Of a DNA stretch of 64,000 nucleotides, positions 3,407-10,031 are shown piece after piece. The position numbers and the translations under genes are program-made. Within the stretch, counting starts at the first letter, position 1, and every line of letters starts with the position of its first letter. This DNA comes from Thiotrichales bacterium (GTDB lineage Bacteria; Pseudomonadota; Gammaproteobacteria; Thiomicrospirales; Thiomicrospiraceae): NCBI GenBank assembly GCA_016936535.1, contig JAFGXP010000003.1:124001-188000 (forward strand), written 5' to 3'. The notes under the pieces were generated by a model, which saw only the letters and a list, made by a program, of their open reading frames with translations, had not been told where the DNA came from and made no database searches.

Positions 3407-4515
3407 GGCAAATACGCATTAAGCTGCTGTAAGCTTTGATAGAGGCTTTGCGGATCGTCCGCCAACAAGGTGATGTGTCCCAATTTACGATCGGCACGCT
3501 CGGCTTTATCGTAAAGATGCAAATGTGCGTTCGGCATTTGTAAAACCTGATGCACAGGTCCAGTCTGGCCAATGATATTAACCATCGCTGCAATTTTTTG
3601 TTTTGGCGCACTCGACCCCAAGGGTAGACCACACAGGGCTCGCACGTGGTTTTCAAACTGGCTGGTCTGTGCGCCTTCAATCGTCCAATGCCCTGAATTA
3701 TGAACTCTCGGCGCCATTTCATTGGCCACCAACCCATTCGCCGTTTCAAACAACTCTAAGGTCAAGACTCCGACATGATCTAAACGATCGAGTAATTTTT
3801 GCATATAGGCTTCGGCTTGCTGCTGAACAAGAGAACTGATTTGCTGAGCCGGTGCAATGGTATAGCGCAAAATGCCTTGATGATGGACGTTTTGCACAAG
3901 CGGATAGTACACCTGCTGGTTGTCGGCATTGCGCACCGCGATAATCGACAACTCTCGCGTAAAATCCACAAACCCCTCCAGAATCACTTCGCGCTCACCC
4001 AGACGGTGCCACGCTTGCTCAATCTGCTCTGGGCCTGCCTCGGCAGAGAGCACCACCTGCCCCTTACCGTCATAACCTTGAGTGGTGGTTTTTAAAATTG
4101 CCGGCAAACCCAGATCCAGCACGGCTTGCTGCAGATCGGCCAGAGAATCCACAACGACAAAGGGCGCGCAAGGAATGTCTAAATCTTGAAACAACTGCTT
4201 TTCACGTCCGCGATGCTGGGCGTGATAGAGCGACTTTTCGCTAGGATAAACCGGCACGCTTTTGGCGATTTCACGTACCATCTCAATTTGAGTGTTCTCA
4301 CTTTCAAACGTAATCACATCGGCAAATTCAACCAACTCTTTGAGGTTATCTACCTCATCCGAATGCAAATGCAAATGCCCAAGCAAAGCCGACGGTTCAT
4401 CGCGACTGACCCCATAAAAGGCAAATTTTTGCCCCAACGGATAACCGGCCAAAGCCAGCATCCGACCAAGTTGGCCGGCACCGAGCACACCAATTTTTTG
4501 ACTGATAGGGGTCAT
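3403..4515 (-). CDS. purK: N5-carboxyaminoimidazole ribonucleotide synthase PurK
   Basis: PurK uses ATP and bicarbonate to carboxylate aminoimidazole ribonucleotide in purine synthesis. The protein (370 residues) is a standard ATP-grasp enzyme: N-terminal IGVLGAGQLGRMLALAGYPLG, central ILKTTTQGYDGKGQ (nucleotide-binding loop), EGFVDFTRELSIIAVR, and the late NEMAPRVHNSGHWTIEGA metal/substrate segment. It lies 90 bp downstream of purE on the same strand, the usual purE-purK order. The 3' end overlaps the nnr stop by four bases. Confidence 0.96.
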   Translation of the reverse strand: MTPISQKIGVLGAGQLGRMLALAGYPLGQKFAFYGVSRDEPSALLGHLHLHSDEVDNLKELVEFADVITFESENTQIEMVREIAKSVPVYPSEKSLYHAQHRGREKQLFQDLDIPCAPFVVVDSLADLQQAVLDLGLPAILKTTTQGYDGKGQVVLSAEAGPEQIEQAWHRLGEREVILEGFVDFTRELSIIAVRNADNQQVYYPLVQNVHHQGILRYTIAPAQQISSLVQQQAEAYMQKLLDRLDHVGVLTLELFETANGLVANEMAPRVHNSGHWTIEGAQTSQFENHVRALCGLPLGSSAPKQKIAAMVNIIGQTGPVHQVLQMPNAHLHLYDKAERADRKLGHITLLADDPQSLYQSLQQLNAYLP

Positions 4516-6256: not shown

Positions 6257-8670
6257 AATTCCCCTCACCTATTGCCTCAATCAAAAATCGCCTGATTCTG
6301 AGCATCGCGTTACTGCACGCACTCTTGATGTCATTATTTGTCTATGATTTGGTGCAACGTCAGGAGCAGTTTTTAACCAAGGAATCACAGGTTACCGCTG
6401 AAGGGATTGCCAAAGCCTTGGCGACCAACAGCGTGCCCTGGATGCTCTCTAACGATCTGGCCGGCCTGGCCGAACTGACGCAAACCCAAGCACAGCAAGC
6501 GCACGTCAACTTCGCAATGCTTTTTAATATGCACGGCAAAATTTTGGCCTACCACCACAATCGCAAACCCCAAGCCTTACCGAACCAAACTGGGCTTTAT
6601 GTCGATTTACCACCCTCGACTGCGCCAAACCAATACGTCTATTTTGATAATCCACAGGTGGTGGATTTAGCGGTACCGATTTTCAAAAACCAGACTCAAC
6701 TTGGCTGGGCTCGCATTCAATTAAGCCGTCAACATACGCAAGAAAGCATTGCCTTGATTACTCGAGAAGGCGTGTTTTACACCCTTGCGGCAATTCTTAT
6801 TGGCTCACTGATTGCCGGTTTAATGGGACACCATTTAACCCATCGCATTACCCGCTTAATTCAAAGCACCAAGCAGATTCGCCTCGGGCAAAGACAGCTG
6901 ACTTTAGACAGTCATGGACAAGACGAACTGGCGGAATTGACCCGCCAGTTTGCTGCCATGCTCCAAGCCTTGGAAAAACAAGAAAATGCGCTCTTTGAAG
7001 AGAAAGAGCGCGCCGAGATTACCCTGCGCTCGATTGGGGATGCCGTTGTCGTCATTAATCAACAAGGCCGGATTACCTACTTAAACCCAGCGGCACAACA
7101 TCTCACCGCATGGAGCCAACAAGAAGCCATGGGCCGCTCGATTAATGAAGTGATGCAACTGTTTGACGATGTTCAGAAGAAACCGGTCGAAAACCCAGCT
7201 TTACGAGCGTTGGAATTGCAAAAAACCATCAGCATCGCCAAAGACACCATCCTGATAAACCGTTTGGGCAATCCCATTTCTCTGATTAATTCCGCCGCCC
7301 CAATTATTGACCGAAACGGCCAAGTCATCGGGGCGATTATGGTTTTTCACGATGCGACTGAGGAGCGCAAATTGCAACACCGCTTGCACTGGCAAGCCAA
7401 CCATGATGCCCTGACTGAACTCTACAACCGCTCAGCGTTTGAACAAGAGTTGGAACGATTGATTCAGCTAAGCCATCGCAGCAGCGCTTTGCAACATTAC
7501 TTGCTTTATCTAGATTTAGATCAGTTCAAGATTGTCAATGATACCGTTGGGCACACAGCCGGCGACCTGCTGTTAAAGCAAGTTGCCGTGCTGTTGCAAC
7601 AGGGGGTAGAAACGCGCGGCTTTTTGTCACGTTTAGGGGGAGATGAGTTTGCGATCTTAGCCAGTGCCGAAAATCAAACCGCCATCATCCAGTTTGCTGA
7701 GCAACTTCGACAAACTATCACCGATCACCGGTTGTTTTGGGATGGCAAGAGTTTTCAAGTTGGCTGCAGCATCGGTGTGGCTGCCATTCACGGCAATTTG
7801 AGCAAAAACACTATCTTATCAAGAGCCGATATCGCCTGTTACCTGGCAAAAGACAAGGGACGCAATCGGATTGAAATCTATCAAGAAGACAATCAGAGCC
7901 TCGCCCAGGATCAGCAAATTATTGACTGGGTAAATCGCATCAAGCAAGGCTTGGAAAACGAACAATTTTTGCTGTACGCCCAGCAAATTGTCAATTTGCA
8001 AAACATGGATTCCGAACAAGGGCATTTTGAAATTTTAGTGCGGATGCGCGATGAACAGGGGCAGATCATCCCACCCAGCCATTTTTTGCCCGCTGCCGAA
8101 CGGTTTGATTTAATGAGCCAGCTCGATCTTTACATCGCCGAGCGCGCACTCAATTGGCTGCAAATCCATGCGCAGAAAATTGACCTGTTAAACATCAATA
8201 TTTCTGGCCAATCCTTAGGACAAGCACACTTTACCGAGAACCTCCTTCAACTGTTGGAAAAATACCGTCCACTCAACCACAAACTGTGTTTTGAAATTAC
8301 CGAAACGGCAGCGATCAGTCAGATGAGGGCAACCATCGACTTTTTGCATAAGGTTAAAAGCTTTGGCTGCAAACTGGCTTTAGACGATTTTGGCTCGGGT
8401 TTCGCTTCCTTCTCTTGGTTAAAAACCCTGCCCATTGATTTTGTCAAAATCGATGGCTCTTTTATCCAAGATGTCCTAAATGACCCAGTCGATGCCGCGA
8501 TGGTACGCACCATCCGCGATATTAGTCAGATTATGCACATCAAGGTGGTCGCTGAATTTGTGGAGACTCAAGCCATTAGCGACTGGCTTAAGGCCATTGG
8601 CATTCACTATGCACAAGGCTATCACTATGACCAGCCCAAAAACCTACAACAGATCTTTACTCAAACCTAA
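6253..8670 (+). CDS. membrane sensor with HAMP, PAS, GGDEF and EAL domains
   Basis: This 805-residue inner-membrane protein should make or break cyclic di-GMP. Order: membrane helix about 12-32, periplasmic sensor, helix about 176-198, HAMP, PAS (about 255-375), GGDEF (LGGDEF near 461-466), EAL. The GGDEF motif is canonical, but the RxxD inhibitory site expected nine residues before it reads ETRG, so product inhibition is probably lost. The EAL domain keeps FEILVR (E about 593), NINISGQSL, FEITET, LDDFGSGF, FVKIDG and AEFVET, so it looks active. It overlaps the PhnD-like gene by four bases, pointing to one sensory unit. Which activity dominates cannot be read from sequence. Confidence 0.92.
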   Translation: MKFPSPIASIKNRLILSIALLHALLMSLFVYDLVQRQEQFLTKESQVTAEGIAKALATNSVPWMLSNDLAGLAELTQTQAQQAHVNFAMLFNMHGKILAYHHNRKPQALPNQTGLYVDLPPSTAPNQYVYFDNPQVVDLAVPIFKNQTQLGWARIQLSRQHTQESIALITREGVFYTLAAILIGSLIAGLMGHHLTHRITRLIQSTKQIRLGQRQLTLDSHGQDELAELTRQFAAMLQALEKQENALFEEKERAEITLRSIGDAVVVINQQGRITYLNPAAQHLTAWSQQEAMGRSINEVMQLFDDVQKKPVENPALRALELQKTISIAKDTILINRLGNPISLINSAAPIIDRNGQVIGAIMVFHDATEERKLQHRLHWQANHDALTELYNRSAFEQELERLIQLSHRSSALQHYLLYLDLDQFKIVNDTVGHTAGDLLLKQVAVLLQQGVETRGFLSRLGGDEFAILASAENQTAIIQFAEQLRQTITDHRLFWDGKSFQVGCSIGVAAIHGNLSKNTILSRADIACYLAKDKGRNRIEIYQEDNQSLAQDQQIIDWVNRIKQGLENEQFLLYAQQIVNLQNMDSEQGHFEILVRMRDEQGQIIPPSHFLPAAERFDLMSQLDLYIAERALNWLQIHAQKIDLLNINISGQSLGQAHFTENLLQLLEKYRPLNHKLCFEITETAAISQMRATIDFLHKVKSFGCKLALDDFGSGFASFSWLKTLPIDFVKIDGSFIQDVLNDPVDAAMVRTIRDISQIMHIKVVAEFVETQAISDWLKAIGIHYAQGYHYDQPKNLQQIFTQT

Positions 8671-8687
8671 ACCAATAAGGCGGGCGT

Positions 8688-8716
8688 TTGCGCCCTGCGG
8701 CAAAAAATGCGATAAT
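8688..8716 (+). promoter_or_regulatory. candidate sigma-70 promoter of metK
   Basis: TTGCGC at 8688-8693 and GATAAT at 8711-8716 are separated by 17 bases. Transcription would begin near 8723, giving metK a leader of about 150 bases. A 5-bp hairpin (GGGCG/CGCCC) overlaps the -35. Confidence 0.4.
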
Positions 8717-8774
8717 CCGAACCGTTTTACAATTTAGCGCCGATTTGAACATCAGCTTGCGGGCGCATTACTAA

Positions 8775-8863
8775 GTACGGCTAAAGCGAGGCGCTTCCTC
8801 TAACAGCACCCCGTTCACTTTCCGTACCTCGTTTTCAATACATTCCCTTATTTGTTATCGAGG
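8775..8863 (+). promoter_or_regulatory. structured metK leader with possible Shine-Dalgarno sequestration
   Basis: GTACGG (8775-8780) can pair with CCGTAC (8822-8827). Inside that loop, GAGG/CCTC (8788-8791 with 8797-8800) and AAGCG/CGCTT (8784-8788 with 8792-8796) are alternative small hairpins. CCTCG at 8827-8831 is exactly complementary to CGAGG at 8859-8863, the ribosome site of metK, and shares base 8827 with the outer stem. The two pairings therefore compete, as in translational riboswitches. No known SAM or SAH riboswitch consensus was recognised. Confidence 0.35.
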
Positions 8864-8870
8864 AACTCAT

Positions 8871-10031
8871 ATGAGCACATTTCGCGTATTTACCTCTGAA
8901 TCTGTTTCTGAAGGCCATCCGGATAAGATTGCCGACCAAATTTCCGATGCCATGCTAGACGCCATTTTGGCGCAAGATCCGCGTGCACGCGTGGCTTGCG
9001 AAACCTTTGTCAAAACCGGCATGGTCTTGATTGGCGGCGAAATCACGACCAACGCTTGGGTTGACCAAGAAGAATTAGTGCGTAAGGTTGTGAAAGAGAT
9101 TGGCTATAACCACGGTGACTTGGGCTTTGACGGAGATACCTGCGCGGTACTCTCTTCCATTGGCAAACAGTCCCCGGAAATCGCCATGGGAGTGGATGAA
9201 ACCAGCGAACATGAACAAGGCGCTGGCGATCAGGGTTTGATGTTTGGCTACGCCTCCAACGAAACCGACGTTTTAATGCCGGCTCCCATCTTTTATGCGC
9301 ATCGCTTAATGGAACGCCAAGCCTATGTGCGTAAATCTGGGCAACTTGATTGGTTGCGTCCAGATGCCAAAAGCCAAGTTACTTTACGTTACCAAGACGG
9401 CAAACCGGTTGCGATTGATGCCGTGGTTTTATCGACCCAACACGCACCGGATGTCAGCAACGCCACCTTGCGCGAAGCGGTCATGGAAGAGATTATTAAA
9501 GAGGTTCTGCCAGCGCAATGGCTGCACAAAGGCACACAATTTCACATTAATCCAACCGGCCGTTTCGTTATCGGTGGCCCGGTGGGCGATGCAGGCTTGA
9601 CTGGACGTAAAATCATTGTCGATACCTATGGCGGGATGGCACGCCACGGCGGGGGTGCTTTCTCCGGTAAGGATCCTTCAAAAGTCGATCGCTCTGCTGC
9701 TTACGCCGGTCGTTATGTCGCAAAAAACATCATTGCCGCCGGCCTAGCTGACAAGTGTGAAATCCAAGTATCCTATGCTATCGGCGTCGCGGAACCCACG
9801 TCGATTAGCATCGAAACCTTCGGCACGGAAAAGGTCGATAGCAACCTGATTGAAAAATTGGTACGCGAGCACTTTGACTTACGCCCTAAAGGCCTGATTG
9901 CAATGCTTGACCTCTATCGTCCTATTTACCAAAAAACCGCTTCTTATGGCCACTTTGGCCGTGAACTACCGGAATTTACGTGGGAAAAAACCGATAAAGC
10001 GGACGCACTGCGCGCTGACGCAGGCTTGTAA
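8871..10031 (+). CDS. metK: S-adenosylmethionine synthetase
   Basis: MetK makes SAM from methionine and ATP. The 386-residue protein has the usual length and motifs: [19 protein letters not shown] at the N terminus, [12 protein letters not shown], and [29 protein letters not shown] ribosome site lies a few bases before ATG 8871. It is the first gene of the set metK-metF-rsmE and is preceded by a long leader with competing secondary structures. No ahcY is seen between metK and metF, unlike in many relatives. Confidence 0.97.

Follow-up and report, generated by a model that had tools for sequence, protein, structure and literature searches.

The leader of metK at this locus raises the question of whether alternative base pairings over a ribosome site form a switch for SAM, the product of the encoded enzyme, and, if so, which sensor and which on/off part it uses. 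The window, i.e. the whole stretch of 64,000 nucleotides that was analysed, contains a gap between the end of an upstream gene at 8670, presumably GGDEF/EAL-like by its motifs, and an open reading frame starting at 8871, which we take to be metK from its EGHPDK motif and the name given to it in the first-pass annotation. This gap was read directly as the leader region. The features referred to throughout, all on the plus strand, are the following.

8737-8741, +, P1 5' strand GCGCC, pairing with 8762-8766 (sequence; pairs across relatives)
8742-8748, +, GATTTGA, in which UUU at 8744-8746 is the expected triplex third strand of SAM-II; matches the SAM_alpha consensus GAUUUG
8752-8753, +, P2a pseudoknot 5' strand UC, pairing with GA at 8788-8789 (covariation of 8752:8789)
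8757-8761, +, UUGCG, core strand facing GGCUAA at 8780-8784, with G8761 pairing to C8778 (covariation of 8761:8778)
8762-8766, +, P1 3' strand GGCGC (sequence; pairs across relatives)
8775-8780, +, H3 5' strand GUACGG, overlapping the aptamer core at 8778-8780 and pairing with 8822-8827
8778-8789, +, aptamer 3' strand CGGCUAAAGCGA (core and P2a 3' strand), matching SAM_alpha CGCUAAAg
8785-8815, +, inner arm of the anti-aptamer hairpin (8785-8788/8812-8815, 8790-8791/8809-8810, 8793-8795/8805-8807), seen in the minimum-energy fold only
8822-8827, +, H3 3' strand CCGUAC (anti-aptamer), with CCGTA[CT] enriched in leaders of the order
8827-8831, +, anti-Shine-Dalgarno strand CCUCG (H5), extended by GU at 8824-8825 (CCTC/GAGG pairing in leaders)
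8859-8863, +, CGAGG, in which GAGG at 8860-8863 is the Shine-Dalgarno site, 7 nt from the ATG; AC at 8865-8866 is the partner of the H5 extension (sequence)
8871-10031, +, metK, SAM synthetase, 386 aa (open reading frame; homologues of relatives 82-88% identical)

The leader and its aptamer

A stem (GTACGG at 8775-8780 with CCGTAC at 8822-8827) and a strand complementary to the ribosome site (CCTCG at 8827-8831, CGAGG at 8859-8863) had been described in the first-pass annotation as sharing C8827, and direct reading combined with scripted pairing confirmed all of these positions as well as the common base. The stems are thus real and exactly placed, but the upstream half of the element had been missed. 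The inner hairpin that had also been proposed (GAGG 8788-8791 with CCTC 8797-8800) exists in the window, but this stretch varies among relatives and is not conserved; a second CGAGG copy, at 8787-8791 within the aptamer, had been overlooked. Folding of 8775-8863 gave -20.6 kcal/mol against a mean of -12.68 (z -3.03), beating 200 of 200 dinucleotide shuffles, and the longer leader 8730-8880 was unremarkable (z -0.96, with 37/200 shuffles equally good). The latter value is in keeping with a structured leader that is no switch and whose pairings arose by chance, a reading that the conservation in 54 metK leaders, the several pair types of the aptamer and the shuffle controls given below make extremely improbable. 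A scan of 8640-8900 detected neither a sigma-70-like promoter nor a plus-strand terminator; on the minus strand, a terminator-like hairpin lies at 8677-8696, directly after the upstream gene.

Upstream of these stems and overlapping them, a SAM-II-type aptamer was located at 8737-8789, beginning 38 nt before the previously reported start. A permissive Rfam search of 8500-9000 returned two matches only, the better being a full-length match to RF00521 (SAM_alpha, i.e. SAM-II) at 8727-8801 (20.8 bits, E 0.02) and the other a weak minus-strand match to Bp2_287. As the gathering cut-off of RF00521 is 36 bits, the aptamer is missed by standard annotation, and no Rfam family matched anywhere in the window at gathering thresholds. 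RF00521 ranked the window site first in a scan of the host genome, at the same sub-threshold score (20.8 bits, E 0.02); because 10 of 14 control genomes also gave RF00521 matches at E up to 1 (0/14 above the cut-off), the window copy alone is not decisive and the relatives decide.

P1 comprises five pairs in the window. The triplex role of GATTTGA was adopted from the accessible text of PMC6061858 with our own mapping of positions, and this motif is invariant among 50 aligned leaders of the order, as are the SAM-contact bases of SAM-V/SAM-II, which are present in the window by the same mapping. According to that text, the SAM-holding bases of SAM-V are virtually identical in SAM-II, and a U:A.U triple selects SAM over SAH in SAM-V; the bases of this triple are found in the window as well. 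A related pocket with a different or broader ligand (SAH, methionine) would be in keeping with the SAM/SAH riboswitches that also precede metK, as described in PMC2864571, and the assignment of SAM here derives from sequence; such a ligand is nevertheless very improbable given that both the SAM-holding bases and the SAM-over-SAH triple described in PMC6061858 are present and that no SAM-SAH family match was obtained in 8500-9000 even at E 10.

Distribution and covariation

A single match to GATTTGA..GCTTGC..GCTAAAG was obtained in the host genome. Of the 62 genomes scanned in the order, which belong to one family and seven genera, 51 contain this pattern, in each case before metK. Among the 11 pattern-negative genomes, metK was located in seven, of which three have a form of the aptamer whose loop or joining hairpin is longer; the remaining four (L175-L178), which make up genus g2 of the same family, show nothing of the kind over the 260 nt that precede metK. 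Of the 58 order genomes with a located metK, 54 therefore have the aptamer before this gene, and the exceptions are the four of this one genus. The RF00521 cut-off was passed by 0/60 order genomes (best score 34.8 bits), and the ten best RF00521 rows in these genomes were all metK-leader sites. Two kinds of insertion were observed: a metK leader (L015, 1476-1893) carries roughly 270 nt between aptamer and gene, with ends resembling inverted repeats, and L028, L173 and L174 have an extra hairpin-like insert in the stretch joining P1 to GCTAAAG.

Beyond the order, the pattern was found in 121/369 class genomes, with no listed row matching the reversed control pattern, and a scan of named genomes yielded at least 120 loci with at least 122 copies. 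One class genome (G306) holds seven copies, four of which lie in two tandem pairs spaced by about 50 nt (C2:2841090-2841231 and C6:294427-294568), and another (G418) holds three. RF00521 matched at E up to 0.05 in 38 of 40 pattern-positive class genomes, vs 3/14 controls, and exceeded the Rfam cut-off in 9/40, all at pattern sites, vs 0/14 controls; it likewise passed the cut-off at 4 of 18 named loci with the motif, the 40 genomes and the 18 loci having been picked by hand. The first-pass annotation had recognised no known class in this leader, a statement that does not hold: the aptamer is SAM-II-like, it is the best RF00521 site of the host genome, and those nine of 40 distant genomes with the motif pass the cut-off. 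A new riboswitch class was rejected on the SAM-II features found.

As the aptamer core is invariant within the order, where 50 of 54 leaders were aligned (all but L015, which has a long insertion, and L172-L174, found later), covariation was sought in the wider relatives. These wider sets were gathered with a pattern that fixes core letters, so that the presence of the SAM-contact letters in them is by construction. Among the matches listed, and against shuffled controls that do not preserve relatedness, each of P1 pairs 1-5 was present, in several pair types, in between 140 and 146 of the 146 distinct sequences; the loop pair of 8761:8778 type, joining the last loop base to the base two before GCTAAAG, was Watson-Crick in 154/158 (G:C 146, A:T 7, T:A 1; shuffle maximum 144); and the pseudoknot pair of 8752:8789 type was Watson-Crick in 126/179 (shuffle maximum 93). 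The loop-pair count left out 21 of the 179 distinct sequences, which have a different P1 offset, and the neighbouring control positions were Watson-Crick in only 22/158 and 10/158. A C15:G53-type pair was formed in 145/146, with one side fixed by the search pattern. The next outer P2a pair was at chance (55/169, shuffle mean 59.6), so that only two P2a pairs are supported and P2a is short, as in SAM-V. The covariation across relatives that had been named as a test of the first observation was found, strong in the aptamer and modest in the platform.

Genes following the copies outside the order were identified in tblastn searches with proteins encoded at these loci, the proteins having been named by eye from their motifs. 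Among the matches listed, 0/152 outside copies were assigned to metK, 37 being unassigned or too short (34/122 scan copies, 3/30 class loci), and the 115 assigned copies precede metX, metZ/metY, metN, metH, a transporter binding protein, hom/metL, bhmT, metE and metA. A terminator-like hairpin follows the aptamer in 26/30 class loci and 65/120 scan copies among the matches listed, vs 0/54 leaders of the order; a near-identical aptamer thus often goes with a terminator elsewhere and, it seems, with a translational platform here. Within 100 nt, GCTTTAGC (up to one mismatch), complementary to GCTAAAGC, occurs in 21/30 class loci and 26/120 scan copies among the matches listed, vs 1/54 in the order and about 3% in shuffles, and could act as an anti-aptamer (antiterminator) strand in the class loci. 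Many of these (L179-L208) have CCTGCTTTAGC and a GCGGG-T-run terminator downstream of the aptamer.

The expression platform and its modelled behaviour

H3 and H5 both recur in 47/54 metK leaders of the order (CCGTA and CTC, then GAGG before the start codon), and CCGTA[CT] is present in 48/54 of them, vs 4/30 class loci and 3/120 scan copies among the matches listed and about 5% of shuffles. H3 occupies 8778 and 8780, which the aptamer core needs too, and is therefore an anti-aptamer helix. Pairs were counted on blocks set by three anchors (GCTAAAG, CCGTA..CTC and GAGG), as the ribosome site is wrongly positioned in several rows of alignment A1; rows L006, L007 and L011-L015, which lack the anchors, were dropped. 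On these blocks H3 and the H5 core CCUC/GAGG were each present in 47/47 leaders, a figure that mainly means that the blocks exist in 47/54, as anchoring favours both cores by construction. The outer pair of H3 is G:C in 42, G:T in 3 and A:T in 2 leaders and its remaining pairs are invariant; among the dropped rows, genus g5 has UGCGG opposite GCCGC, as judged by eye. The H5 core is nearly invariant and hence nearly silent on covariation. Its fifth pair is G:C in 26, A:T in 10, G:T in 1 and T:A in 1, with 9 mismatches, all in genus g6 (38/47 paired, shuffle maximum 36), while pairs 6-8 are unsupported in the anchored leaders; pairs 5-8 together are formed in 79/188 cells, a count reached by 53/2000 shuffles, and slid registers pair equally well. 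Extension of the anti-Shine-Dalgarno helix into the H3 3' strand (in the window, 8824-8825 with 8865-8866) is possible in 39/47 leaders. The original claim, that pairings in the metK leader alternate over the ribosome site and most likely serve a SAM switch, is upheld by the conservation of both the stem and the anti-Shine-Dalgarno strand; compensatory changes in this platform are few and its covariation, resting on few pairs, is modest.

Control of early transcription termination (intrinsic or Rho) by the same aptamer, instead of translation, would agree with the description of most SAM-II riboswitches as transcriptional in the accessible text of PMC6061858 and with the terminator-like hairpins of other lineages. 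An intrinsic terminator in the window leader was rejected, none being present in 8640-8900 or, by the hairpin test applied, in any of the 54 order leaders, and the ribosome-site pairing CCTC/GAGG in 47 of these 54 also speaks for translation, which leaves termination unlikely. Both CGAGG copies of the window are exactly complementary to CCUCG, which might accordingly pair with the aptamer copy (8787-8791) in the absence of SAM and move to the ribosome site once SAM binds. This alternation was rejected as highly improbable: the modelled pairing probability of CCUCG with the aptamer copy is about 0, in the 11 leaders with A:T or T:A the base that follows CTC changes with the ribosome site rather than with the aptamer copy, and L031, L050 and L051 keep CCTCG although their aptamer has GCGTGG.

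In the window model of the leader alone and without ligand, the pairs of the stem have probabilities of 0.91-0.99 (outermost pair 0.54) and the anti-Shine-Dalgarno pairs 0.96-0.97 (C8827 pair 0.45); when 36 nt of coding sequence are added, the stem pairs fall to 0.31-0.50 and the anti-Shine-Dalgarno pairs stay at 0.68-0.94. The earlier statement that forming one helix limits the other therefore stands as far as C8827 and the anti-Shine-Dalgarno extension are concerned, where competition is real, but the two helices otherwise form together in the model; competition between aptamer core and stem, for 8778 and 8780, is more direct than that between stem and CCTCG.

The occupied aptamer was modelled by forcing P1 and withholding the core bases, with no real ligand energy. 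So modelled, occupancy raises the opening energy of the ribosome site in 45/51 leaders (medians 3.38 to 5.71 kcal/mol), with a mean gain of 2.24 kcal/mol vs 0.37 when the platform was dinucleotide-shuffled 40 times per leader (highest mean of a shuffled replicate 0.75). The gain lies above the leader's own shuffled mean in 42/51, and 66% of shuffles likewise show some gain; the six leaders without gain are L005, L009 and L011-L014, the last four belonging to g5. For the window the gain is 4.78 kcal/mol (5.07 to 9.85), reached by 1/40 shuffles. With H3 broken in silico the window model still gains 2.91 (5.52 to 8.43), and with the anti-Shine-Dalgarno helix broken 2.08 (3.00 to 5.08), the site being easier to open in both states; the breaks thus lessen the predicted gain without abolishing it, which is not the behaviour of a clean switch. 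As H5 is already likely without ligand in the window model, the predicted change is one of strength, and the modelled ribosome site is largely paired in both states.

The metK leader is probably a riboswitch of the SAM-II class, its P2a being short (two pairs) and its translational platform separate, in which high SAM would lower metK translation. The computed support consists of the conservation of the aptamer, the covariation of P1, 8761:8778 and 8752:8789, the conservation of H3 and H5 with a few compensatory changes, and the predicted loss of site access on occupancy; from these we infer SAM as the ligand, the direction and the translational level of control. With little SAM, the aptamer strand GUACGGCUAAAGCGAGG would be held in a long hairpin (H3 and inner arm), CCGUAC would be occupied and the anti-Shine-Dalgarno helix shorter, and the ribosome site would open more easily, so that MetK is made. 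With much SAM, P1, core and P2a would be folded by the ligand and H3 excluded, and the freed GUACCUCG strand together with CGAGGAAC would form the full, extended helix, so that metK translation drops. The net effect would be end-product feedback on metK; direct SAM control, if true, closes the loop on the ligand-making enzyme.

Comparison with known systems

The leader resembles SAM-II (RF00521) in element order, in the GAUUUG / CUUGC / GCUAAAG core, and in P1, the pseudoknot pair and the loop pair; by our own reading, the loop-end pair predicted in the accessible text of PMC2258182 is the 8761:8778-type pair. It differs in its sub-threshold score, in having two supported P2a pairs where about five are described for 60% of SAM-II (PMC6061858), and in its metK target, with a ribosome site 70 nt downstream that is reached through a separate hairpin and with no terminator. 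In the Sinorhizobium meliloti metA SAM-II leader, it is the pseudoknot that is predicted to mask a GAGG site, which is embedded in P2a (PMC9373788), whereas the site of the metK leader lies 70 nt beyond the aptamer. SAM-V, as presented in PMC6061858, is alike in its very similar pocket, 2-bp P2a and translational control, but its P2a itself contains the ribosome site, in contrast to the downstream site here; membership of SAM-V was rejected, as no family match was obtained in 8500-9000 at E up to 10. The occurrence of terminator and anti-Shine-Dalgarno platforms on nearly the same aptamer provides a natural pair for the study of platform exchange.

In the literature consulted, SAM-II is reported from alpha-, beta- and gamma-proteobacteria (PMC2704228), with a few occurrences outside the alpha-proteobacteria (PMC1273637), and a scan with the Rfam model placed SAM_alpha only in Rhizobiales and Rhodobacterales (Leyn 2014, PMC4239095); the Rfam SAM_alpha cut-off under-reports SAM-II outside the alpha-proteobacteria. 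The accessible text of Leyn 2014 also gives no known regulator for beta-proteobacterial metK and reports metXZ, a new element lying before metX or metZ that may form a pseudoknot and is accompanied by terminators, and to which no ligand is assigned. Many of the outside copies share genes (metX, metZ), lineages, possible pseudoknot and downstream terminator with this beta-proteobacterial element, as compared by its published text; as they too precede metX and metZ, the metXZ element is likely the same aptamer, which would supply it with a ligand hypothesis. The metK leader differs from it, on the same text, in its target and in having no terminator. Bp2_287 (RF02424, a Burkholderia sRNA) lies over an aptamer-bearing metZ leader of Paraburkholderia (L111, 112 bits), where its match at 4186-4383 (+) faces the aptamer at 4302-4348 (-); its weak match in the window (8707-8834, -, 17 bits) is likewise on the strand opposite to the aptamer, and the family seems to have been modelled on the antisense strand.

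In the open-licence literature (main texts, supplements aside), no report was found that places SAM-II before metK or in this order; the type of sensor is already known, and metK as target and the anti-Shine-Dalgarno on/off part look new. There is, in our judgement, an even chance that one widespread SAM-II/SAM-V branch unites the metK leader with metXZ, which has no ligand assigned, and with Bp2_287, modelled on the wrong strand; it would be present in about one third of the sampled class genomes, mostly sub-threshold, and one order would have swapped its terminator platform for an anti-Shine-Dalgarno one on metK, giving direct end-product feedback. As part of this joint reading, and held at equal strength, such a branch would combine the SAM-II pocket and loop pair with a SAM-V-like P2a of two pairs.
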